From Bacteroidia bacterium (lineage in GTDB: Bacteria > Bacteroidota > Bacteroidia > Chitinophagales > Chitinophagaceae), in assembly GCA_030427635.1 (NCBI GenBank), contig JAUIBA010000004.1, positions 124,001 through 188,000 of the forward strand: DNA of 64,000 nucleotides, read 5' to 3'. Position 1 is the first letter of the stretch, and each line of letters begins with the position of its first letter. The notes under the pieces are model-generated. The model was not told the origin of the DNA. It did not search any database and saw only the letters and a list, made by a program, of their open reading frames with translations. The position numbers were made by a program, and so were the translations under genes. Below are positions 22,625-35,900 of this stretch, one piece after another.

Positions 22625-22713
22625 GGAGAGATGCTCGAGTGGTTGAAGAGGCACGCCTGGAAAGTGTGTATATCTGTCAAAGGGTATCCAGGGTTCGAAT
22701 CCCTGTCTCTCCG
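22625..22713 (+). tRNA. tRNA-Ser (anticodon GGA)
   Basis: Acceptor GGAGAGA/TCTCTCC, anticodon arm CCTGGAAAG, long variable arm, T-arm CAGGGTTCGAATCCCTG; CCA not encoded. Confidence 0.93.
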
Positions 22714-22730
22714 CCTTCGCCCGCCGAAGC
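22706..22730 (+). repeat. Left copy of tRNA-tail direct repeat
   Basis: TCTCTCCGCCTTCGCCCGCCGAAGC, 22/25 identical to 27117..27141. Confidence 0.75.
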
Positions 22731-22753
22731 GGGCTACGGCGGACAAAGTCCGC
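22719..22753 (+). other. GC-rich tandem hairpins downstream of tRNA-Ser
   Basis: GCCCGC-CGAA-GCGGGC followed by GCGGAC-AAA-GTCCGC. Confidence 0.7.
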
Positions 22754-22791
22754 AAGTAGTGCCGCGAAGGAGGGCCGCCCGAAATGGGCCT

Positions 22792-22823
22792 ATACCCAAC
22801 AGAGATTAAATCTTTGTTGGGTA
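22792..22823 (+). terminator. Probable tRNA-Ser transcript terminator
   Basis: ATACCCAACA...TGTTGGGTAT followed by TTTTATTT. Confidence 0.7.
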
Positions 22824-22857
22824 TTTTATTTGTACTTTCAGAGATATTTCTATCCCG

Positions 22858-23097
22858 GTGTGGTACAACGTTTATATCCTGGAACTCAGCAATGGCAAAC
22901 ATTACGTAGGCTGCACAATCAACGTAAAGGAAAGATTCATACGACATACAAAAGGCTATGTACCAGCTACCAGATTACATTTACCTGTAAGACTTTTATG
23001 GTGCTGCTCCTTCCCTGATAGATATAAAGCTTACGATTTTGAGCGGTATTTGAAATCTGGTTCCGGAAGAGCGTTTGCTTCGAAGCATCTCTACTAA
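22858..23097 (+). CDS. Small GIY-YIG nuclease domain protein (GTG start)
   Basis: YNVYILELSNGKHYVGCTINVKERFIRHTKG...AYDFERYLKSGSGRAFASKHL. Confidence 0.88.
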   Translation: MWYNVYILELSNGKHYVGCTINVKERFIRHTKGYVPATRLHLPVRLLWCCSFPDRYKAYDFERYLKSGSGRAFASKHLY

Positions 23098-23130
23098 AAA
23101 TCAGCAGCACTCGCTAATCTTCTATAAAAA

Positions 23131-23220
23131 TTCGAAAATTGTCCCTTACAGCCCGCAGAAATGTAAAACCCGCGCTTTTCGTGGGTTTTGTCGTTCGAAC
23201 TGTCCCACCTCCTCATTTTA
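23131..23220 (+). repeat. Degenerate punctuation repeat A
   Basis: TTCGAAAATTGTCCCTTACAGCCCGCAGAAATGTAAA...CACCTCCT; resembles the repeat at 25621. Confidence 0.55.
23165..23189 (+). terminator. Rho-independent-like hairpin
   Basis: AAAACCCGCG-CTTTT-CGTGGGTTTT. Confidence 0.65.
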
Positions 23221-23341
23221 TTGGACAATATAAAAATATTCTTCAGGTAAAAAAACGTGTTTTTCACGTTTTTCCCAAATTACTTTGATAATACATTTGA
23301 TAGTAAGCATTGCAGTCTTTCACACTTAAAACAAAAAATGT

Positions 23342-23761
23342 ATGCTGAATAAGATTTTTCAGAAAAGCACAAAGAAGAAAGGTGCAATACCCACATCGCT
23401 TGTCGAGACAAATGGCCTATGCACTTACTCATTTTCAGTCGTATGGACTAACAATGGTAGCAGCCTCTCCCTATACTCGTTAAACGCCAAACTGTCATCA
23501 AGTGGCAATTGGGTGAAATTGATTAGCATAGTCATTACCGATGATGATGGGGAAATTACCATCCAGATCGGCAACTTTGCAAAGGGTACTAGTATAGATA
23601 TGTTATTCGGAGTTTATCCTATGCAGGATATTCCCGAAGCGGCTATTTATGTGACTAATATGACGGAAGGCACTTCACAACAAACAGCTCCAGCAAATGG
23701 TACGCAGAAGCTCACCAAAGCTACAGCTTGGAATGGTCAATTCACAATAATATTATTTTAA
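23342..23761 (+). CDS. Hypothetical protein, predicted beta-rich; first gene of three-gene operon
   Basis: 139-aa ORF, stop 1 nt from next start; no family recognised. Confidence 0.7.
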   Translation: MLNKIFQKSTKKKGAIPTSLVETNGLCTYSFSVVWTNNGSSLSLYSLNAKLSSSGNWVKLISIVITDDDGEITIQIGNFAKGTSIDMLFGVYPMQDIPEAAIYVTNMTEGTSQQTAPANGTQKLTKATAWNGQFTIILF

Positions 23762-23762
23762 C

Positions 23763-24929
23763 ATGAAACATATCATTATTATATCGGGATTCTTATTTTT
23801 GAGCAGTGTTGCAATGGGCCAGCTTCAGGGTGGTTTTATTGCCGATGTGATACTTAACAATCCAAGTGATTATAGAAAACATGTCAAGCCATTAATTACT
23901 TCAGCAGCGGACCATCATTTATCTGACAGAGCAAGCTCGTTTACAGGTTCTAGCTATTTGTTTAGCTCAATAGACCTTTCGTCATATGAGTTGCTGTCGG
24001 CCAATCTATCGTTCACCAATGAGCAAAATAATGCTAAAGTAGTTTTCGCTCCTTACAAATTAAATAACCGGCCAGTAAGCGCATTAGCAGAAGGCATTAA
24101 ATTCAACTTGGCGTTACAAGATAATGTCGCCACGATTGGTGCCGCATTTGGTCATGACAATTCTTCATACCGATCAAAGAAATCCATAAAGCTCAGAAAG
24201 AAATTCTTTGACGATAATCCTATCCCCACACCTGAGGCATGGGAAGTTACCAAACATGGGTCCTTTAGCGAGTATGAGGCCCATGTGCTTAATCCGTTTA
24301 CACGAAAAATGATGGACAGCCTCCTCCTTGCTTTTGACGAAAGTCGAGCGAAAAGTGTTTTCAAATGGTCAGCCGGTTACAATATACAGTTGTTCCCGAA
24401 CCTTTTTGCTCAAGGAAGCGTTTCTAGTTTTGACAGCCTAAATGCGTTCAATATGAAATCACATAATTTTTCAGCAACATGTACATACAGCTGGGATAAT
24501 GCGAGATTTACGGCACGGTCATCTTATAATCAAATTTGGTCTCGTGCCATAGCAGCAGAGGGCCAAAAATTAGTGCCCTATTACGGTCCGTCAATTGCAA
24601 TCAGTGCTCGTCTATTCAGTTTTATGAAAAAAGAGCAACTCCGCAAGTCGGAAAATTATAAGAAAAGCCTGTTCATACCTTCATTGATTTTTGGGGTATC
24701 ATGGGATGGTAAATATGCGGATGGCAGCAAGCAGTACGTACCCTACTATCAGGATAAGATAATGAACAAGACAGTAACAATGCCATATTTTGACATTTTA
24801 ATAACGCCAGCTGCACAATTCAGGATAGGCTTGCCAATTACCAATTCAGTCTACCCTAGTAAAACTAATGAAGTTGCTGGCGGCACAAATATTCAGTATA
24901 ATCTGAAGATATCCGATTTGTCAAAATGA
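23763..24929 (+). CDS. Hypothetical secreted/outer-membrane-like protein
   Basis: Signal peptide MKHIIIISGFLFLSSVAMGQ; alternating aromatic/polar beta-strand-like segments. Confidence 0.72.
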   Translation: MKHIIIISGFLFLSSVAMGQLQGGFIADVILNNPSDYRKHVKPLITSAADHHLSDRASSFTGSSYLFSSIDLSSYELLSANLSFTNEQNNAKVVFAPYKLNNRPVSALAEGIKFNLALQDNVATIGAAFGHDNSSYRSKKSIKLRKKFFDDNPIPTPEAWEVTKHGSFSEYEAHVLNPFTRKMMDSLLLAFDESRAKSVFKWSAGYNIQLFPNLFAQGSVSSFDSLNAFNMKSHNFSATCTYSWDNARFTARSSYNQIWSRAIAAEGQKLVPYYGPSIAISARLFSFMKKEQLRKSENYKKSLFIPSLIFGVSWDGKYADGSKQYVPYYQDKIMNKTVTMPYFDILITPAAQFRIGLPITNSVYPSKTNEVAGGTNIQYNLKISDLSK

Positions 24930-25483
24930 TGAATCTAAACATCAAAAGGAAACCCATGAGAACATTCAGAAGCATATTCATTTTAATAGGAGCATTCGCA
25001 TACGGCTGGCTTTTATGTATACTTACCAAAAATGGCATGCCTGATATTATGGCCCTTGCCGTTAGCATCGTAACACCTATTGCAACAGGTGCAGTGATTG
25101 GCAGGCCCATTATAAACAGCATTCGGAGAATGAACAACGAGGACGATAAGGAAAAGTTGATTACCACGATGGCCTCTTTTTTTTGCTTGCTCGCTGTCGG
25201 CATTGCTATCGGATCTACTACTGGAACAATATTTCAAAAGCATGTATTAGCAAATTGGGACAAGGGTGCCGAAAAAGAGGTATGGCAAACTGAAGTTGAA
25301 GGATGGAAACAGATATTGTCGGACCCAAAGGATAAAAACGGTATTGGAATGAAATTGTTCGAGAAGTATCTTGGGAAACCGGTAAATAACCCTAGTCAAA
25401 ATCAGTTGCATTTAACTTCACAGCAAAATTCTCAGCAGGGGTTCACTGCCCCAGCGTCGAAGGATATGCAGAGAACTCAATGA
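24926..25483 (+). CDS. Hypothetical membrane protein
   Basis: Several hydrophobic segments; ATGA overlap with upstream ORF (alternative start at the internal Met, MRTFRS). Confidence 0.72.
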   Translation: MMNLNIKRKPMRTFRSIFILIGAFAYGWLLCILTKNGMPDIMALAVSIVTPIATGAVIGRPIINSIRRMNNEDDKEKLITTMASFFCLLAVGIAIGSTTGTIFQKHVLANWDKGAEKEVWQTEVEGWKQILSDPKDKNGIGMKLFEKYLGKPVNNPSQNQLHLTSQQNSQQGFTAPASKDMQRTQ

Positions 25484-25620
25484 TGGTGGTTGGGACTCAG
25501 TAAATTATATTGCAAATAATTGCCGGCTGGTACGTTCTGGGGGAATTTTTGAACAACTGCGATCTTTATCAAGCGCTCGTATGGGAATCCAACACTGCGT
25601 TCAAATCCTCAACAAAGAAG

Positions 25621-25693
25621 TTCGAAAGTTGTCCCCTTCCCTCCGCAAGAAGCTCCGCAGAAATGTAGAGCTTTATTGTTTATGCTCACCTCC
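25621..25693 (+). repeat. Degenerate punctuation repeat B
   Basis: TTCGAAAGTTGTCCCCTTCCCTCCGC...CCGCAGAAATGTAGA...CACCTCCT. Confidence 0.55.
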
Positions 25694-25801
25694 TATCTCG
25701 CCATACTATTTGATAATGTTGTATTTTAAAACAATCAAATATTGTGTACAAAAAACAGTTTATACAATTATTTACGCAATGCAAATATCATGTAGGTTCA
25801 A

Positions 25802-27007
25802 TTAAAATGGTAAATCGTCAAAACTATCAGGAAGTGTACGGATTATTTCTTCAAGCTCTTCTTTCGTTATCTGCCTTTTAGTAACTTCAATATCCATTTG
25901 ACAATGCAACTCTATTTGCTGCAATATATTCTCCGAAAATAAATTTATTTTGAACTTTACGTTCATTGATGTCTTGGGATACAGCAGCAAAACTGTTTCT
26001 AATACTTTAATTTTGTTTGGTAGTAGCGAAAATTGCTGTGAGCTAAACTCCCACACATTTGATGATGTCTTAGTCAATGTATCTTTAAATAATCTTCTTA
26101 TTTGCAACTCAGTTTCCAAAGGTAAATCCGAATTATATGATCGCCTGTGAATACCCCCACGTTCAGCAGACATATTTTGTATTATTAACTCATCTCCTCC
26201 AATAGATGAGTTTATTGCGAGTTCCACGATTACGTTTCCAAAAATCCTACCAGTGTTGTTTTGAAGCCCCAATAATACCGGAATAACATTTTTGCTATTC
26301 ACATAAGAATGCAACGCATTTTCAAATAGCCAACTACGTTTTTCTGAAACTCGCTTGTCTTTTTTAGCAATATTTTGGATACGTGTATTATCAAATTCAA
26401 CTCGCTCAATACTGATTTTCTCATGAGTACTAAAAAGTAGCTCAGTTTCTCTATTGATAAATGAGAAAGCTATTATTTCTTTTATTGATTCTTTTCTTTC
26501 CTGAAGCTCCCTAATTTTCATTTCAAGTTGCCTTGATATTTTATCCCTGAATTCTACAATAGAATTAAAGTGTTCTACGAGAGCCACTTTATAGATATCT
26601 TCCCTAAACCTGTTTAATGCTTCAAGTTGAGTTAAATTAATTTGAGAAGGATCTTTACCTCGTTTTGAGAAATATAACATTACAGGTTTACCTGCTTTAG
26701 ATACTCGTTTTATCTCTTCTATTGTACCGCTTAAATCTTCGCCTGTAGGAGAGCCTACCTTTGTCCAAAAAAAACCTATTAAAAGATCGCAATCGTCAAC
26801 AATTTGCTTGTTTATTATCTCTTGAGGTCTATTCCCATACGTGGGTGATGAGTGCGTCTCCCATCTGATTGGTAACAGAACAATTTTCTTGCTAAAAGAA
26901 TTTAAATCATTCCAATCTTGAATCACCCTTGCCGCGACTTCTCGTTCTTCATCAACATCGGAAGGGGATGCAATCAATATTCTATATACAGTAGATTCGT
27001 AAGACAT
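25802..27007 (-). CDS. DUF4062 domain protein with unknown C-terminal region
   Basis: YRILIASPSDVDEEREVAARVIQDWNDLNS...DLLIGFFWTKVGSPTGE is the DUF4062 signature; start refined to MSYESTVYR. Confidence 0.85.
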   Translation of the reverse strand: MSYESTVYRILIASPSDVDEEREVAARVIQDWNDLNSFSKKIVLLPIRWETHSSPTYGNRPQEIINKQIVDDCDLLIGFFWTKVGSPTGEDLSGTIEEIKRVSKAGKPVMLYFSKRGKDPSQINLTQLEALNRFREDIYKVALVEHFNSIVEFRDKISRQLEMKIRELQERKESIKEIIAFSFINRETELLFSTHEKISIERVEFDNTRIQNIAKKDKRVSEKRSWLFENALHSYVNSKNVIPVLLGLQNNTGRIFGNVIVELAINSSIGGDELIIQNMSAERGGIHRRSYNSDLPLETELQIRRLFKDTLTKTSSNVWEFSSQQFSLLPNKIKVLETVLLLYPKTSMNVKFKINLFSENILQQIELHCQMDIEVTKRQITKEELEEIIRTLPDSFDDLPF

Positions 27008-27100
27008 GTCCCTTGACTTTATAATCAACTTACAAAATACAAATGATTTATACTTTTCTACTATTAAGTCATTGTGCTAAATTGTAATCTCTAAAAAAAA

Positions 27101-27125
27101 TCGAAATTTGTCACCTTCTCTCCGC
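27101..27125 (+). repeat. Degenerate punctuation repeat C
   Basis: TCGAAATTTGTCACCTTCTCTCCGC, 22/25 identical to 25622..25646. Confidence 0.65.
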
Positions 27126-27141
27126 CTTCACCGGCCTAAGC
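27117..27141 (+). repeat. Right copy of tRNA-tail direct repeat
   Basis: TCTCTCCGCCTTCACCGGCCTAAGC, 22/25 identical to 22706..22730. Confidence 0.75.
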
Positions 27142-27264
27142 CTTTCAACAAAGGCGGTCAGCTCATCGATTAGCACTTAGCTTATCGAAAAACAAAATTC
27201 ATCAGTCAGGCTTCGGCGAGTCATGTCCACTTTTTTGCTTAGTTCAGCTCGTTATTTAGCTAAT

Positions 27265-27360
27265 ATGGCACACGTCTGTATCCTTGAACTATCAAACAGC
27301 AAACACTATATTGGGAAGGATATAGCATACACCCACTATTCCATAGCTTCATTATATTAG
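27265..27360 (+). pseudogene. Truncated GIY-YIG N-terminal remnant
   Basis: MAHVCILELSNSKHYIGK... aligns with VYILELSNGKHYVGCT of the intact copy, then diverges to a stop. Confidence 0.7.
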
Positions 27361-27444
27361 CACATTATGTACGCACTAATATATACCTCACATACTACCA
27401 CTTATCTGCATTAAGCAAAACTCATGCAATACACCGCACACACC

Positions 27445-28191
27445 ATGAAGAAAATATTCCCGGCATTGTTGCTGCTGTTCATAGGCATTAACGCTTCTGC
27501 CCAAACGACCGTTACCATCACTAACCGTATCCGCCACAAGCCTAAAAGCCTGTCAGTTATTGAAAAATATCAGTCTCTGAAAAGTGACAAAACAGTAAAG
27601 CATGGCCTATATCAGCGGTTCACCAATAATATGCGACTCCTGGAGTCCGGCTATTATAACCAGGGAAAAAAAGACAGTGTATGGATTCAGTACAATAACT
27701 GGAACCAATTTCCTGAAATAACCGGACAATATAAGAATGATAAAAAGGTAGGTATCTGGACTTATTACAAAGAAAAAGACACGGTAGAGTTCCTGTATGA
27801 TTTTGACAACAATAAAGTATCCGGCATCACATCTGACACGTCTAAAGAATATCAGGTACTCATCGGTACCGACACAGTCAAAACAAAACTTGCACAACCA
27901 CCACTTTACCTGGGAGGAAAAAGTACTATTCAAAAAACACTCGTTGACAATGTCAACTACCCCAATGAAGCACGGGAAAACAATATACAGGGCCGTGTGT
28001 TAGTTGCGTTTACCATCATGCCGGATGGGCAGGCCAGCGCTCCCTGGATAATGAGAGGCATTCATCCCTCAATCGACAAAGAAGCATTAAGAGCGCTGGC
28101 TCACCTCCCTGCCTTGTGGTCTGCTGCCATATATAAGGGGCAGCCCGTCACATCCATTTATGTTGTGCCTGTTATTTTCCATCTGGAATAG
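27445..28191 (+). CDS. TonB C-terminal domain-containing protein
   Basis: Signal peptide; VDNVNYPNEARENNIQGRVLVAFTIMPDGQASAPWIMRGIHPSIDKEALRALAHLP. Confidence 0.85.
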   Translation: MKKIFPALLLLFIGINASAQTTVTITNRIRHKPKSLSVIEKYQSLKSDKTVKHGLYQRFTNNMRLLESGYYNQGKKDSVWIQYNNWNQFPEITGQYKNDKKVGIWTYYKEKDTVEFLYDFDNNKVSGITSDTSKEYQVLIGTDTVKTKLAQPPLYLGGKSTIQKTLVDNVNYPNEARENNIQGRVLVAFTIMPDGQASAPWIMRGIHPSIDKEALRALAHLPALWSAAIYKGQPVTSIYVVPVIFHLE

Positions 28192-28336
28192 TAAATGTTG
28201 CCCCGGCACATGACTTTGTAAAAGTGCATGTTGATTTCACTGCTGTAGCTTCATTGCATTACAGATTATGCTATCATTACCCCATGATAGTAAATTATGG
28301 ATACAAGGGTACAATATGCAGTTACGGTCCCTTATA

Positions 28337-29464
28337 TCATCTGTCCAGCACCTTCATTCTGAAAATTTTCCGCTCATTGCCTGCAGATATCGTTACAGAA
28401 TCAGCAAACAGCCTTGCATAGGGTTCATACTGTCCGCTGCTATGCAATGCAGCCACATTTGACTGAAAAACCTCCTTATAATAGTATTTAAACAGCTCAT
28501 CCCCCATTCCCCCTTCATTCAGTAAATAAGACAATGAGGTATTTACCACAGCATTCTCTTCAGCCATATTAAACACACCTACATTTCTGTTTCTTCTTAT
28601 ATCAGATAGCATCTTGTCATGCGGATACAGGTAGTCTATATACCGGTGTATCATTTCATGTATCAGCGTCTCTATAAGACCTTCCTTCATATACAGAGTA
28701 TAGTTTTCATCTGCTGTACTCCTTTTGTATATAGGTCGGCTCCCTTTCGATGTTTCATTACCCAGTATATTCTTCGCATGTATATCTATCACCACTACAT
28801 TACGAAATCTGCTTACATTCCCCGCACCATCCACATCAGGAAAGTAGCCCTCACCCAAAAAGGAAGTATAGGACTTGGCTATATAATCCGGGGTCTCATT
28901 AAACGCTATCCAGTAACACTTATTCATGTTTGAAAACAGTTCCAGCTTTGGCCTGTCGCTGGGATAGCGCTCTGTATCGGTAAACAATCTTTCGAAAGCC
29001 AGCCAATACTTAGCCCTTAGTATCTCCACAGCCCTCGCTGCATAGTAGACATTTTTCTGGCTCTGGATATTATCAGTCTCAGTAGAAAAATAGAAATTAT
29101 CATATCTGTATATGTATAGTTTTTTGTTTATTGATGCCGAGTTATCACTCCTTACCGGATTTGCGCTGAATATCCCTATGTCATTAGGATGCAGATACCC
29201 TACATACTCCAACTTTATTACGTTTATAGGTAGTTCTATATCCCGTATAGCTATTCCCTGGTTATCTGCACTTTTTATCACATACCGTATCTCACTTTCC
29301 ATTGCGGCAGCAGTCATTCCTGTACGCTCTATATCATTCCTGTACTTTATCCAGCGCAGGTCATGTGCCTGTAGCGCCTGCGTGCCGGCATTGAACTCCT
29401 GGGCATGGCATATTTTGGTCAGGCATAATAGTATTATTGTTGCATAGGCTAATCTTCGTTTCAT
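28337..29464 (-). CDS. Secreted putative zincin-like protein
   Basis: Signal peptide MKRRLAYATIILLCLTKICHAQ and ETLIHEMIHRYIDYLYPHD (HExxH). Confidence 0.6.
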   Translation of the reverse strand: MKRRLAYATIILLCLTKICHAQEFNAGTQALQAHDLRWIKYRNDIERTGMTAAAMESEIRYVIKSADNQGIAIRDIELPINVIKLEYVGYLHPNDIGIFSANPVRSDNSASINKKLYIYRYDNFYFSTETDNIQSQKNVYYAARAVEILRAKYWLAFERLFTDTERYPSDRPKLELFSNMNKCYWIAFNETPDYIAKSYTSFLGEGYFPDVDGAGNVSRFRNVVVIDIHAKNILGNETSKGSRPIYKRSTADENYTLYMKEGLIETLIHEMIHRYIDYLYPHDKMLSDIRRNRNVGVFNMAEENAVVNTSLSYLLNEGGMGDELFKYYYKEVFQSNVAALHSSGQYEPYARLFADSVTISAGNERKIFRMKVLDR

Positions 29465-29480
29465 AAACTATCTGTATCTG

Positions 29481-30293
29481 TTATGTATTTAAAAAGTCTT
29501 CGGCCTGTTTCTTCTGCTCCCTGGTAGGCTCAGCCTGCTCATCCAGTATCTGAAACCGGGCATATACCGCCTTTATAGTTGATATATTATACCTGTTCTG
29601 ACTATTCTGAATGGCGGTTGCCATTTTGTTTCGCGATACTATGTTCCGCATCGCATATATTATCGCTCGGCTGTCTGTGAATATATCACGCGTGCTATCG
29701 TCCGATATAAATACCTGAAACGGCCGTGGCTGTAATTCTGTCGGGCTATTGGCCATATACTCCTTTATGGTATCTACAGCATCCAGTATCTTCTTATAGT
29801 TTGCAAAGTTGAAGTCTCCGGGTCCTGGCAGTATTGCCAGTATATCCGGCTTATTTATGCCTATTCCGTTTATCTCATACTCTACCCTTGCCATTCCCAG
29901 CTCTGTACTGGCAGCTATTGCACCAAAGTTGAAATTGACGTTCGATTTTATCTCTGATACCTTCAGCACTACCCGCAATCCTGCCCCCCAACGGGTGCCA
30001 TATATTTTGCCTCCTATAGGCACCTCTGATATTTTTTCAGTAAATGCCATCGCCTCATACGATAGCACAAAAGCATTATAGTTACCTCCTATAGTGCCTA
30101 CACCTACCCCCAGGTCGGCAGCTACCTGAATGTTAAATGAGCTTTGCAATACCCGAAACTGCGAAAACGGGTCTGCCCCGGCATCCAGCGGAATTGGTTT
30201 TAAGTCCCTCGCATTTGTATCATACGAGAATGCAGAAAATGCACCGGCATCTGTTAATGTCGGGCTTATCGGGAACCAGCTTAAGTTTGCCAT
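29481..30293 (-). CDS. Hypothetical protein, 270 aa
   Basis: Long ORF 16 nt upstream of the zincin-like gene on the same strand; no recognised family. Confidence 0.7.
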   Translation of the reverse strand: MANLSWFPISPTLTDAGAFSAFSYDTNARDLKPIPLDAGADPFSQFRVLQSSFNIQVAADLGVGVGTIGGNYNAFVLSYEAMAFTEKISEVPIGGKIYGTRWGAGLRVVLKVSEIKSNVNFNFGAIAASTELGMARVEYEINGIGINKPDILAILPGPGDFNFANYKKILDAVDTIKEYMANSPTELQPRPFQVFISDDSTRDIFTDSRAIIYAMRNIVSRNKMATAIQNSQNRYNISTIKAVYARFQILDEQAEPTREQKKQAEDFLNT

Positions 30294-30492
30294 AGTGAAT
30301 ATTTTTTATGCCTACTCTGATGCAGATTTTCGGCTACCTCTGTCTTATATTTTGTAGGTGTTTTGCATTGCTTCCTGCATATCCTCTTTGCTCAGAAACA
30401 ACAATATCAAAAGTAGGTTTGTATATCACCGGCATCAACTGCGAAAAGTCGCAGGTTGCACTAAATTTGTTATCTTGTAAAAAATATCTGAT

Positions 30493-31221
30493 ATGAATAC
30501 CCCAGGAGATTTTTCCCGCTCTATGATATCTGATATCCCGGCTAACCTTGACAGCGAAGAGGCCCGTCATTTCAGAAATACAATAGTCCGCTTTCCTGAA
30601 GAAGCAATTTATATTTACTCATTCCTGCAAAATCGCATGATATATGCCGATGGCTGGTCCGAAATTCTCGGATATGACGACCGTGAAATAAACATGCTCA
30701 CAATTGTCAATATCACCGCCCCGGAATACGCCCCCTTTGCCAACGAACTAAATGACAAAGCGCTCTTGTTCCTGCTTGGTAAAACTGAAAATCTGGAGAA
30801 ATACAGTTTCACTATTGAGCTGAAAAAAATACACCGGCAGGGGCATCATGTCCCGCTCATAGTTCGTGTAGGTGTTTTCAGGGCACAGAATGGTCGGGTC
30901 ACAGAAATAATAGGCCGCAATCAGATAAACCATAGTATCACTCTGGGAAAGGTGATGCGCTATGCGGCCTATGGCCCCGAAAAGTCAGAATTTGAAGAAG
31001 AGCTGAATAAGAATCTGTTTCAGCATTTTGCCATATCCCGTAAGGAAAAAGAAGCCCTTGCACTTGTGGCAAAGGGCTACTCATTCAAAGAAATTGCAGG
31101 AAGGCTGGATATATCACAGTCTGCCGTAGAAAAAAGACTGCTTCCTCTTTATAAGCGATTCGATGTAAAAAGTCTGTCTCACCTGCTTACATTCTCTTAC
31201 GAAAATCATATCCTGCCATAA
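30493..31221 (+). CDS. PAS-like plus LuxR-type HTH regulator
   Basis: PAS-like N-terminus (YADGWSEILGYDDREIN) and SRKEKEALALVAKGYSFKEIAGRLDISQSAVEKRL. Confidence 0.82.
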   Translation: MNTPGDFSRSMISDIPANLDSEEARHFRNTIVRFPEEAIYIYSFLQNRMIYADGWSEILGYDDREINMLTIVNITAPEYAPFANELNDKALLFLLGKTENLEKYSFTIELKKIHRQGHHVPLIVRVGVFRAQNGRVTEIIGRNQINHSITLGKVMRYAAYGPEKSEFEEELNKNLFQHFAISRKEKEALALVAKGYSFKEIAGRLDISQSAVEKRLLPLYKRFDVKSLSHLLTFSYENHILP

Positions 31222-31227
31222 GCCACG

Positions 31228-32298
31228 CTATGCTGGCGACAATAACCCTACCGACAAAATATCTTCCCTGCTTACACCCAGGTCTGTGAGCATTTTTTCC
31301 CATGAAGCATAGTTCTCTGCCACACTTCCTGTCTGTTCTCCCATTACCCATACTATCTTTCTGTTGCGCATGGCCTCCATATTTATTGTGCGTACCTCAT
31401 CGGTATCAGTAAGTAGTTTCATGAAGTATGCTGCCGTTACCAGCTCACCATGTCCTGCAGTTCCGGGATTTATATCATCTATCACCAGTAATGCCGATGT
31501 ACGCCATGTCCATAATGATTTTTCCTGCTCCTTAAGCTGATCATCTTTTACTGAAAACATGTCAAATAGCTTCATGCCGGTTGTGTAGCTACATGCCACA
31601 TGTCTGAAACAATGCTCTGTGCCTATACCCACACTCAGGCTTGTCCGGCCACTACCCTTCTCCCCAAAAATCAGCAAATGTTTTTCCTGGCCCTCGTCCT
31701 CCATAAATTTCAGCACCTGTTTCCTGTCCTCCTCGCTTATATTCAGATTCCATTGGCTCAGCCGCATCTGGTACGGATATTTTGCATACTGCAGATACAT
31801 CTTTGTCAGAAACCAATACCTGCAGGGATACACAAGTATGAATAGAACCGCAGCTATTACATATCCCATTAAGGGGATATAGAGAATTAATGCCCCCGAT
31901 GCAAAAGCTCCCAGCCAGAAAAAACACAAGTCCGTAAATGTATCAAATGCAACATTGCCCCATGCCGGCCTGAATACATATGGCTTCTGTGATGGCACAT
32001 ACATAGCTTTAGAGCTCGTTTGCTTTTTTAGTAACAGCGGTCCCAGAAAGTTGTATAACTCAAATGCCAGCCACATAACCGAAATGATAACAGCACTCCA
32101 CAATTCAGGATTGTTAATTGAGCTGTATTTCAACAATAGTTTATGTACAATAAGTGTCGGAATAAAACCAAGAGAGAAATGCCCAAACTGATTAGCCATC
32201 CACGCATAGGTAAGTGTTACACCCCGGTATGAGTCCTTACCTATCAGGTCTTCCTTTAATTGATGTAAAACATCTTTCAGGGTCAAACGTCCTTTCAT
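31228..32298 (-). CDS. Membrane protein with P-loop ATPase-like domain
   Basis: N-terminal TM segments; Walker A-like GEKGSGRTSL and Walker B-like ALLVIDD. Confidence 0.68.
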   Translation of the reverse strand: MKGRLTLKDVLHQLKEDLIGKDSYRGVTLTYAWMANQFGHFSLGFIPTLIVHKLLLKYSSINNPELWSAVIISVMWLAFELYNFLGPLLLKKQTSSKAMYVPSQKPYVFRPAWGNVAFDTFTDLCFFWLGAFASGALILYIPLMGYVIAAVLFILVYPCRYWFLTKMYLQYAKYPYQMRLSQWNLNISEEDRKQVLKFMEDEGQEKHLLIFGEKGSGRTSLSVGIGTEHCFRHVACSYTTGMKLFDMFSVKDDQLKEQEKSLWTWRTSALLVIDDINPGTAGHGELVTAAYFMKLLTDTDEVRTINMEAMRNRKIVWVMGEQTGSVAENYASWEKMLTDLGVSREDILSVGLLSPA

Positions 32299-32926
32299 AG
32301 TGTCTTTTTTACAATATACAACTTAATTGCACATTGTACATACCCTCCATCACATTATAGCGCTATTGCCCTGTGATGGGATTTCCATAGCGGCATAGCT
32401 ATTCGGGATTCACACTACAATCCAGAGGTAAATGGATGCCGCCATTCATCCCATTATCTTCATCCATATTCTCATCTTAAAAACAGAAATTTCCCCTTAA
32501 TAACACATCCTGCTGCAAACTATTTTACATCATATGCACCATAGCCCATATGCTGCGCACATAACTGCATAACATTATACATCTGCTTTTCTATCCCCGG
32601 CTATGGTGTCATCTTTACACCAGAATACAAAACCTGAAGCCCTATGCATATGAAAGCAAATAGCAACAGCCTGCGACATAACTATATTTTCACTACTCAC
32701 TTCTCTGCTAAGCAAACACTCTCAACAGCTGGTAGCCCTTAAACACATTACATTTTTCACGCGAGCAATTTTTGTGAACTTTTTGCGCAGAAACATAATA
32801 AAACCACCCTCCCCAAATTCACACAAAAACTTAATTATCAATCAATTATGTTAACGAAACAAAATAAATAGCCGAAAGAAAATAAAAACTGCGCACTGAG
32901 CAATTTGCGCCACCATATCAGCAAAG

Positions 32927-32968
32927 AAAAAAGCTACCTTATTGTGTTTGCAATAAGGTAGCTTTTTT
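32927..32968. terminator. Strong bidirectional hairpin terminator
   Basis: AAAAAAGCTACCTTATTG...CAATAAGGTAGCTTTTTT. Confidence 0.88.
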
Positions 32969-32989
32969 CAGGCCCTCAGAGATGCTTTC

Positions 32990-35900
32990 TTATTCTTCAT
33001 CGTCACCACCGCCACGGTAGGCTGGCTGACGCGCTTCAAGCAGCTCTCTTATCTTAGGTTTGGTTTCTACTATTGTCTTCAGTCGCGACATTATTGTATT
33101 GGCCATCACAGTATCCTTCGCACTTGCCGCAGACTGTGCCAGATTCTGCAGTATGCTTATGTGCTGTGTCACACCATCAGCCATAGCGTAGCGGCTGTTG
33201 TCGTTCAGGCTTGCTACCCATTCCATATGCTGCACCGCGCTTGCCATTATCTTATTTACTATCACTGATGCCTTCTTTGGCTCTCCTGCATAGTAATAAG
33301 CATTAGCCATCAGATAACCAGAATAGTCATAACCATAAGGATACGAATGCTCCGTAATATTTTTAAATACTTTATCCAGCAGCTTCACTGCCATTTCGCG
33401 TTTGCCTTCTGCTACCAGCTGGCTGGCTATAAAAGCAGAGTTCATACGGTACGATATCAGCTCATGACGGTTAGGCTCATCAAAGTAAACGTCTTCACGC
33501 TCTGCACCACCCCATACAAACTTATTCATGAACATGTCATAAGATTTTGCAGAGTTTACGGTACCCAGTACACCCTGTGGCGGGCGGGCGTCATCTATCA
33601 CCTTGAATGGCATCAGACGGTACACCATACCCTCCAGGCGCATATACTCACCGGTACCCACATAGTCGCTCTGGCGCAGCCCTGCATCAAAGTACAGTGG
33701 GCGCTTCCAGCCGTCACGGGCCACAGCAGCTATAATATTCATCACCGCCAGGTCGCTCTTGGTAGCAGCATTTTTAGGGAATATGAAGCGCATGTCTGTT
33801 TCCACTCTTGCAGTATCTGCCTCGCCTATCAGCCCACGAGCTACAAGCTCTTCCTTGCTCGGTGTAGGCACTGTAAAGTTCTTCACAGGCATATAGTTTA
33901 TATACTCCTGGTTGCCTCTCATAGCCATCTTATCCCTGTCATTACTGTTCATAAATGCACAGATGTCTATCAGGTTAAAGAATTTGTCCTTCGGTATCTT
34001 CACAGAGGGGTTTTCATAATACTGCAGGTAGTTATGTTTATCACCCAGGTAGTCACTCTTCGTCCAGGTCATAGGTACCGCAGGCGCATCATTTATCCTG
34101 TAGTTAAGCTGGTCTATATACCAGTCTATACCCAGCAGGCTGGTATTGATTACACGCACATCCCTGCGGAAACCCTCTATCTCCTGTATATACCACAGCG
34201 GATAGGTCTGGTTGTCACCATAGGTAAAGAGAACCGCATTGGGCGCACAGCAGGAAAGCGTATTATAAGCAGTAGCATTACCCAGTGTTTTCCGGGAGCG
34301 GTCATGATCATCCCACTCTTCTTTTGCCATAAGTACAGGAGCTGCCAGCATAGCTATACCGGTAGCTATTGTGGCGGCACTCATGGTATTACCCATAGTT
34401 TTCCGCAGCCAGTCATATATCAGCAGCACACCCAGCCCTATCCATATGGTAAAAGTATAGGTACAGCCGGCAAATGCATAGTCACGCTCACGTGGCTGCA
34501 ACGGTGTCATATTCAGGAATATACCAATAGCAGCACCGGTGAAGAAGAAAAGGGTAAGCACGGCCACACCATCACGCTTGTTACGGTCAAACTGGAACAG
34601 AAGTCCCATAATACCCAGAATGAAAGGCAGGAAGTACAGTTTGTTATGCGCCTGGTTTTTACTCAGGTCGCCCATTTTATCTGTATTACCCAGTCCGCGA
34701 ATGCCGTCTATGAACGATATACCAGATATCCAGTTACCCCTTTCAGGGTCGCCCTGACCTTCTACGTCATTCTGCCTTCCGGCAAAGTTCCACATAAAGT
34801 AGCGCCACCACATCCAGTTCATCTGATAACGGAAGAAGAACGCGAAGTTATCTCTGGCTGTTGGGTCATCATTCTCTGCTATGTTCAGATAGCTACGGTA
34901 AAAGCTCTTATGGCTTCCGCTGTTATAGTCCCATATGCGGGGGAAGAAATGGCTCTGATTCTCACCGGTACGCGGGTCTTTACCAAATATCGGCTCCGTT
35001 TTGGTACCTACTATTTCATAATAGTCTTTGCCATCTTTCTTTACAGGTGCATATGTTTTCTTGGAGTCATCAAGGTCTGTCCATACACTGGTAAAATAAG
35101 GACCGCTAAACAGTGGCTGCTGGCCAAACTGCTCACGGTTTACATAATCCAGAAAGCTCATAGGGTTATCCGGATTGGTCATATCTATAGGCACATCGGC
35201 ACGGGAGCGGATGATGGCCGTAAAGTAGCAGGAGTAACCTATTATCACAAATATGATACACAGCATACCTGTGTGCAGGAGATAGCGCCCTTTCTTCTTT
35301 GCAAACAGCAACAGAAATACCAGCAATGCCACCAGCAGTGTAAGGAAAAACATGGCACCTGTATCGAACGGCATCCCGAAATCATTGGTAAACATACGGT
35401 CAAACCAGGATGCAATGCGTGGTATATACTGGATAATGCCAAATTGTATAAAGCCCAGTATCACACCACCTACTATAAATGCTATGAATGTACCCATCGG
35501 CGTTGGCTTGTAACGCTTGAAGTAATATATCATGGCAAGAGCAGGTATAGTAAGGAGGTTCAGCAGGTGCACACACACAGAAAGGCCTATCAGAAACGAT
35601 ATCAGCACTATCCACCTGTCAGCATAAGGCTCATCAGCCGCCTCTTCCCACTTCAGCATAGCCCAGAAGGTAAAAGCAGTAAACAGAGAAGATGTGGCAT
35701 ACACCTCCGCCTCCACTGCCGAGAACCAGAATGTATCAGAGAAGGTACAGGCAAGTGCACCCACTACACCGGCTCCCATTACAGCTACGGTTTGCCCCAT
35801 GTCAGGAGCATTACCGCTGGCTATCATCTTTTTGCCAAAGTGCGTAATGGTCCAGAACAGGAACAGGATACTGAACGAGCTGGCAAATACAGAAAGTGAG

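Follow-up and report, generated by a model that had tools for sequence, protein, structure and literature searches.

Islands of large serine recombinases (LSRs) such as the staphylococcal cassette chromosome (SCC) may lack recombinase genes, as does a 26.6-kb pseudo-SCC, and form composite islands with restriction-modification genes (PMC10581047). Also, the cis-mobilizable elements known as CIMEs are integrase-less but keep the attachment sites attL and attR, next to which additional elements can become integrated in tandem (PMC5704250). In the passages available of a report on Ca. Methylopumilus, a flexible genomic island (fGI), fGI-2, is described in which the 20 nt at the end of a tRNA gene are repeated in association with islands of 330 bp to 42 kb that vary in gene content (PMC10872708). 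Here we compare with these systems a cassette island directly 3' of a tRNA-Ser(GGA) gene in a 64,000-nt stretch of the genome of a freshwater Chitinophagaceae bacterium (the window; G000:C39:124001-188000, from a genome of 4.25 Mb in 49 contigs, 99.5% complete), by using 35 congeneric genomes (congeners) and, for a wider comparison of proteins, 60 relatives; genomes, contigs and loci are given by our labels G, C and L. With a probability of about 0.78, we consider this locus to be a composite island, accreted at the tRNA 3' end by successive site-specific integrations at sites of an LSR family.

The reading is based on a conserved site that came to light by comparing the tRNA-Ser loci of other species. 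The site consists of TCAAATCCTCnACAAAAAAGTTCGAAAGTTGTCCC and an 11-nt tail, which is mostly TTACAGCCCGC and sometimes TCTCTCCGC, and it is usually followed by a terminator-like hairpin. When a position weight matrix built from 31 copies, all from other genomes, was run along both strands of the window, the three best matches were sites 2, 1 and 3 of Table 1, all on the + strand and all within the island; the three scores are above the maximum of 4.5 reached in 60 simulated 128-kb sets, and the next best match in the 64 kb scored -13.5. Because of these three copies, the island divides into stacked cassettes, and cassettes 1-3 are all closed by the same 53-nt site. The initial annotation had placed a single block of cargo between two GIY-YIG modules, but at least three stacked cassettes and a truncated fourth were found instead; its further proposal of a modular island at the tRNA 3' end that lost its integrase is supported, with the correction that three cassettes and a truncated one are involved. 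A search for the 27-nt core of the site with up to three mismatches gave 24 copies in 13 of the 35 congeneric genomes, the number for G000 being one, while the reversed pattern, used as a control, gave none. Among 84,980 species genomes, the exact motif was hit in 13 stretches, all of which are from environmental Bacteroidetes metagenome-assembled genomes (MAGs), several named Chitinophagaceae and one labelled Sphingobacteriales; none was found in a scan of viral contigs for the exact motif. The sites also form arrays in other genomes, namely in L163, where five sites are found within 6 kb, with three in G009:C15 and at least two in each of G007, G012, G028 and G019.

In two sister species, G009 and G031, elements are found that terminate on the right with the same site and on the left, at tRNA-Ser(GGA) or tRNA-Ser(TGA), carry an LSR of ~530 aa with the Pfam domains Resolvase and Recombinase. 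G009:C11 has the order of tRNA-Ser(GGA), LSR, ~30 kb of cargo, the site (2 mismatches) and then chromosomal genes, which by inspection include RimM- and TrmD-like ORFs. In G009:C31:13502-42031 (L173, L174), tRNA-Ser(TGA) and the LSR are followed by defence-type genes (by inspection, type I restriction-modification, several TIR-like and patatin-like proteins), with the exact motif 28 kb on, and this 28-kb element is an apparent defence island. The order in G031 is tRNA-Ser(GGA), LSR, IS3 and the site, the motif being 4.7 kb from the tRNA. The left boundary of the LSR elements is fixed, because on two tRNA genes the same start AGAAAGGGACAAAC directly follows ...CTCTCCGC. The LSRs at tRNA-Ser(GGA) in G009 and G031 and at tRNA-Ser(TGA) in G009 form one clade with 95% amino acid identity and 90-91% DNA identity, compared with 74% for nuoN; their identity to plasmid and phage recombinases is below 60%, and to phage proteins 23-28% among the best matches listed. 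The three sites of the window, their order and the ending of LSR elements on tRNA-Ser(GGA) and tRNA-Ser(TGA) elsewhere with that same site are evident from the sequences. LSRs are common in this genus: 27 of the 35 genomes have one, whereas a search of the whole G000 genome for PF07508 (E<=0.001) gave none. On this contig, no tyrosine recombinase was found among the PF00589 matches listed. The absence of a local recombinase in the initial annotation was borne out, and the view that the missing enzyme is a large serine integrase is supported by G009 and G031, where such an integrase is found at tRNA-Ser genes in elements that share this right end. An LSR gene beside the attachment site is present in G009 and G031 but neither in the window nor elsewhere in G000; the window holds integrase-less relatives, and since the genome is without an LSR, the array is presumably immobile at present.

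The geometry of the site also points to a serine integrase. GTTCGAA is separated from the junction by 27 nt in 32 of the 32 right ends that could be scored, compared with 22 nt in the tRNAs, which is a constant shift of 5 bp. In serine integrases, the zinc-ribbon motif occupies bp 16-24 in the half-site of attP and bp 11-19 in that of attB, again with a 5-bp shift (PMC3783163); with the symmetry axis of the reconstructed attP (position 24) taken as the centre, GTTCGAA occupies 18-24 in the right ends and 13-19 in the tRNAs. Furthermore, the attP reconstructed from three LSR elements, CAAATCCTCCATAAAAAAGTTCGAAAGTTGTCCCTTACAGCCCGC|AGAAAGGGACAAACATGC, has an inverted repeat with 14 of 24 pairs, a level reached by only 3-4 of 1000 shuffles. 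We infer that the right-end site is an attP-type half-site recognized by the LSR; it would be the P-arm of the attachment site of an LSR family that inserts exactly after the terminal CCGC of tRNA-Ser. On the left, each cassette would then adjoin the tRNA 3' end or the tail of the cassette before it, and on the right it would be closed by a site of its own. In a plain search of the window for copies of the tRNA-Ser 3' half, nothing was found in the island except the tRNA itself, because the ends of the modules resemble attP and not the tRNA.

Some further observations were made on the LSRs of this genus. Many of them are encoded beside a tRNA gene (Gln, Arg, Ala, Met or Ser; e.g., L138-L140, L148, L150, L152, L156, L173, L064 and L054) such that the C-terminal end of the reading frame overlaps the tRNA 3' end in antisense, and the integrase C-terminus is therefore encoded across the attachment site. 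Several LSR clades are present, each of which keeps to one or a few tRNAs. The element at G009:C11:136421-168400 (L113, L170, L054) is 32 kb long and encodes proteins of 3507 aa and 2463 aa with their companions. Also, L250 (IMGVR_UViG_2609459644_000003), a 47.6-kb contig filed as viral, has an LSR that shares 65% identity with the one at tRNA-Ser, hinting that this integrase clade serves phage-like elements as well.

Cassettes of 0.6-2.5 kb without an LSR recur across species, with a DNA identity of 91-95% versus 75-77% for nuoN. A cassette with a gene for a 209-aa protein is 95% identical between G007 and G012 (nuoN, 77%) while its flanks are unrelated, and the homology begins exactly at the left-end pattern (LEFT) and stops 11 nt past the GTCCC of the right-end pattern (RIGHT). 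Similarly, a HicAB cassette is 91% identical between G009 and G028 (nuoN, 75%) and has a 77% similar counterpart beside tRNA-Ser in G010, and a G019 cassette matches L163 at 81%. At the right end of the 32-kb LSR element in G009, 285 nt also match an array cassette at 89%. To the extent that sequence identity can tell, these data demonstrate recent transfer between species of LSR-less cassettes with their ends at the motifs. The cargo of the cassettes includes HEC-01 (AAA and DUF4276), a ThsB-like TIR protein, a DNA cytosine methyltransferase with a GHKL protein, HicA or HicAB, a DUF1016 nuclease, an IetA-like ATPase, DUF4062, DUF4238 and Sel1-repeat proteins, and a flavin oxidoreductase with an HxlR regulator.

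A resident LSR would have inserted the LSR-less cassettes in trans, which is plausible, or else they would have arrived as fuller elements and lost the LSR afterwards. In its widest form, mobilization in trans would amount to a serine-integrase counterpart of the integron, in which mostly single-gene cassettes with standard ends, many of them for defence or toxin-antitoxin systems, might be moved by the tRNA-Ser LSR of other resident elements and captured, stacked and exchanged at tRNA-Ser tails and elsewhere; we regard this as possible, but only tentatively so. The main rival to mobilization in trans is pure decay, by which each cassette arrived as a full LSR element and then lost its integrase and most of its cargo through deletion, as in CIMEs. 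Left-end remnants of LSR elements without the LSR ORF in G012 (L058) and G015 (L044), the presence of a degenerate site in the window, and the fact that CIME accretion is an established route (PMC5704250) are all in favour of decay. The compact LSR-less cassettes, however, have a common left end of their own, and their near identity across species, confined to the segment from LEFT to RIGHT, makes it hard to see each of them as an independent decay product; we consider decay alone to be rather unlikely. That another recombinase, or homologous recombination between short GTTCGAA...GTCCC repeats, built the arrays and that the LSR elements merely share their end is less probable still: LEFT-type cassettes are indeed unlike the LSR left end, and the junction at 9336-9354 of L108 resembles a deletion between two GTTCGAA repeats, but no common non-LSR recombinase gene was seen in or beside the cassettes, and an LSR element and a cassette have a 240-nt right end in common at 89%.

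The initial annotation had also proposed that the GIY-YIG nuclease beside the tRNA drives the acquisition and spread of cargo. The gene is indeed directly 3' of tRNA-Ser in G000, G034 and G002 and follows right-end sites in G031 and G028, but only some of the tRNA-Ser or cassette positions have it; most cassettes with the same ends carry none, the autonomous elements have an LSR at that tRNA junction, and the geometry of the junction fits a serine integrase. GIY-YIG is one passenger and not the motor, and its role as a driver is very improbable. Equally remote is an integron-type array, such as a cluster of attC sites lacking an integron integrase (CALIN), or a tycheposon with a tyrosine recombinase, although tandem cassettes of one to three genes with a conserved 3' site are reminiscent of attC arrays, and tRNA-bounded islands of tycheposons. 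The core of attC has the consensus GTTRRRY, whereas a 33-copy alignment of our site gives GTTCGAA, by which integron attC sites are ruled out. The PF00589 (Phage_integrase) matches in G000 are on other contigs, with none listed on this one, while IntI itself was not searched for. As to tycheposons, the autonomous copies have a serine recombinase as their integrase next to the tRNA, and a tRNA together with a tyrosine recombinase was not found within the element.

Several points weigh against accretion by LSR-family integrations. MAGs are among the comparison genomes, sites 1 and 3 of the window are degenerate, and several arrays have no intact tRNA nearby and open with a short sequence that resembles a tRNA tail. 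Most left ends of the LSR-less cassettes (the hairpin and GTCGTTCGAAnnGTCCC) are also unlike the left end of the LSR elements, and because of this difference it is no more than plausible that they were inserted by the same integrase. Moreover, the genus is deep and its gene order so scrambled that the search of the tRNA-Ser and cassette loci of the congeners gave, for none of the sites, a clean allele that was empty or had other cargo: the genes for 579-aa and 727-aa proteins that flank the G019 and G026 arrays differ in orientation elsewhere, the right flank is not syntenic at nuoN beside the G012 array, and at gluQ beside tRNA-Ser the genes in between comprise, in G033, an RND-type efflux set and show no cassette end.

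Table 1. Coordinates of the features of the tRNA-Ser(GGA) island in the window
Feature	Position	Strand	Remarks
tRNA-Ser(GGA)	22625..22715	+	ARAGORN; 3' end GGGTTCGAATCCCTGTCTCTCCGC, putative attB half-site
Cassette 1, GIY-YIG type	22716..23156	+	Left end CTTCGCCCGCCGAAGC... directly 3' of tRNA; closed by site 1
Small GIY-YIG domain protein, 79 aa, GTG start	22858..23097	+	PF01541, E 8.4e-12
Right-end (attR-type) site 1, ...ATTCGAAAATTGTCCCTTACAGCCCGC	23104..23156	+	Matrix score 18.5; 2 mismatches to 27-nt core
Cassette 2	23157..25646	+	Bounded by the sites at 23156 and 25646
Cassette 2 left end	23157..23206	+	Terminator-like hairpin and GTCGTTCGAAnnGTCCC; LEFT pattern exact at 23183-23206
Cargo ORF, 139 aa	23342..23761	+	Cassette 2; no Pfam match
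Cargo ORF, 388 aa, hydrophobic N-terminus	23763..24929	+	Cassette 2; homologue only in G002 among 60 relatives
Cargo ORF, 185 aa, membrane protein predicted by inspection	24926..25483	+	No Pfam match above cut-off
Right-end (attR-type) site 2, CAAATCCTCAACAAAGAAGTTCGAAAGTTGTCCCCTTCCCTCCGC	25594..25646	+	Matrix score 64.4, inside the range of other genomes (12.6-86.9)
Cassette 3	25647..27125	+	Bounded by sites 2 and 3; GC 0.33
DUF4062-like protein, 401 aa, candidate defence gene	25802..27007	-	Cassette 3
Right-end (attR-type) site 3, degenerate	27073..27125	+	Matrix score 12.4, third in window
Truncated cassette 4	27126..~27360	+	GIY-YIG-type left end and GIY-YIG 5' fragment; 70-82% to modules of G028 (L115) and G031 (L064)

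The local features reported in the initial annotation were borne out. Positions 22706-22730 and 27117-27141 are identical at 22 of 25 positions, and this repeat is beyond chance: the 25-mer at 22708-22732 has no second match in the window with up to three mismatches, and none is expected by chance. The repeat is composed of the tail CTCTCCGC, which is common to the tRNA and the third site, and then the left end of a GIY-YIG-type cassette. The left GIY-YIG ORF is intact with its PF01541 domain, and the right one is broken, in that 27090-27310 is a degenerate homologue of the GIY-YIG-type left end with a GIY-YIG 5' fragment and aligns with L115 of G028 (74% over 140 nt and two further pieces) and L064 of G031 (70% over 162 nt). 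The lower GC was also confirmed, with 0.40 in cassette 2 and the value of Table 1 in cassette 3 versus 0.467 and 0.447 in the flanks. Cassette 1 is homologous to L037 of G034 (76% over 402 nt) and L038 of G002 (74% over 330 nt), and the left end of cassette 2 is found in G001, G007, G009, G012, G019 and G028. Homologues of the 139-aa (39%) and 388-aa (about 45-46%) proteins are side by side at G002:C1:933000-934200 (L081), with no cassette end nearby. The DUF4062-like protein of cassette 3 matches PF13271 just under the cut-off (E 1.3e-4) and, over residues 7-220, PADLOC PDC-S60 (E 4e-28), and has weak partial matches in only 2 of the 60 relatives.

When tRNA-Ser(GGA) was compared across the congeners, the gene content downstream was different in almost every one, instead of following a fixed order, while Mpl and a small lipoprotein upstream of tRNA-Ser are also found in G018 and G029. 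The right flank of the island (27424-33000) looks lineage-specific, and its 375-aa SprT-like gene (28337-29464) has no homologue in 34 of 34 congeners. The other small GIY-YIG gene of G000 (G000:C1:135250-135540, L003) is ~20 nt upstream of tRNA-Arg(TCT) and thus on the opposite side of its tRNA compared with the tRNA-Ser case. In other genomes, furthermore, an intact tRNA-Ser(GGA) is flanked by tandem 5'-half/3'-half remnants (L062 in G026, L056 in G010, L058 in G012, L059 in G001, L060 in G019, L047 in G032 and L041 in G024). The remnants mostly have CTCTAAGGGT and the intact genes CTGTCAAAGGGT, the remnants overlap in GGAAAGTGTG..., and the repeat periods in G026 are 209 and 92, which suggests that a second recombination process might operate inside the anticodon/variable arm.

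In conclusion, the att sites, enzyme and target proposed here provide a concrete mechanism by which small defence and toxin-antitoxin genes could move among freshwater Bacteroidota without a recombinase of their own. This looks like a little-described route for the spread of defence genes, which the same cassette ends border in the sister species, and the 53-nt motif is a handle for finding such cassettes. Should the LSR act in trans, arrays of cassettes would no longer be exclusive to tyrosine-recombinase integrons. The LSRs, together with their attB sites at tRNA ends, may also become useful for integrating DNA into the genomes of these bacteria.

Among known systems, SCC and pseudo-SCC of staphylococci (ccr) are similar in having recombinase-less members within composite serine-recombinase islands, but they insert at the 3' end of rlmH, whereas the cassettes described here are at the 3' end of tRNA-Ser, measure 0.6-2.5 kb and hold one to three genes; the host phylum is also different, and so is the recombinase, in view of its low identity to those of plasmids and phages. 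Membership in SCC was rejected, given the insertion after tRNA-Ser and not rlmH, and the lack of ccrA/B/C, since G000 has no PF07508 protein. As in CIMEs, the window has three right-end sites in order and no integrase, but the present cassettes are much smaller, would depend on a serine integrase at a tRNA gene and have ends conserved across species. Additive fGIs, as represented by fGI-2, are also known from freshwater bacteria with repeated tRNA tails, but the tRNA there is tRNA-Lys, and no recombinase or attP-type site is named for fGI-2 in the available passages of its report (PMC10872708). Tycheposons are likewise tRNA-bounded cargo islands (PMC10872708), but theirs is a tyrosine recombinase (XerD-like) in place of the serine integrase here. 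The phage-type serine integrases (A118/phiC31) resemble our LSRs in the Resolvase and Recombinase domains and the 5-bp shift of the outer motif (PMC3783163) and differ in that the C-terminal end of the LSR gene here overlaps the tRNA 3' end in antisense. In searches of the literature, which did not extend to subscription journals, arrays of serine-integrase cassettes at tRNA-Ser were not found to have been described for Bacteroidota. While LSR composite islands, CIMEs and additive fGIs are thus known already, the stack of serine-integrase cassettes at tRNA-Ser is considered to be a new variant among them.

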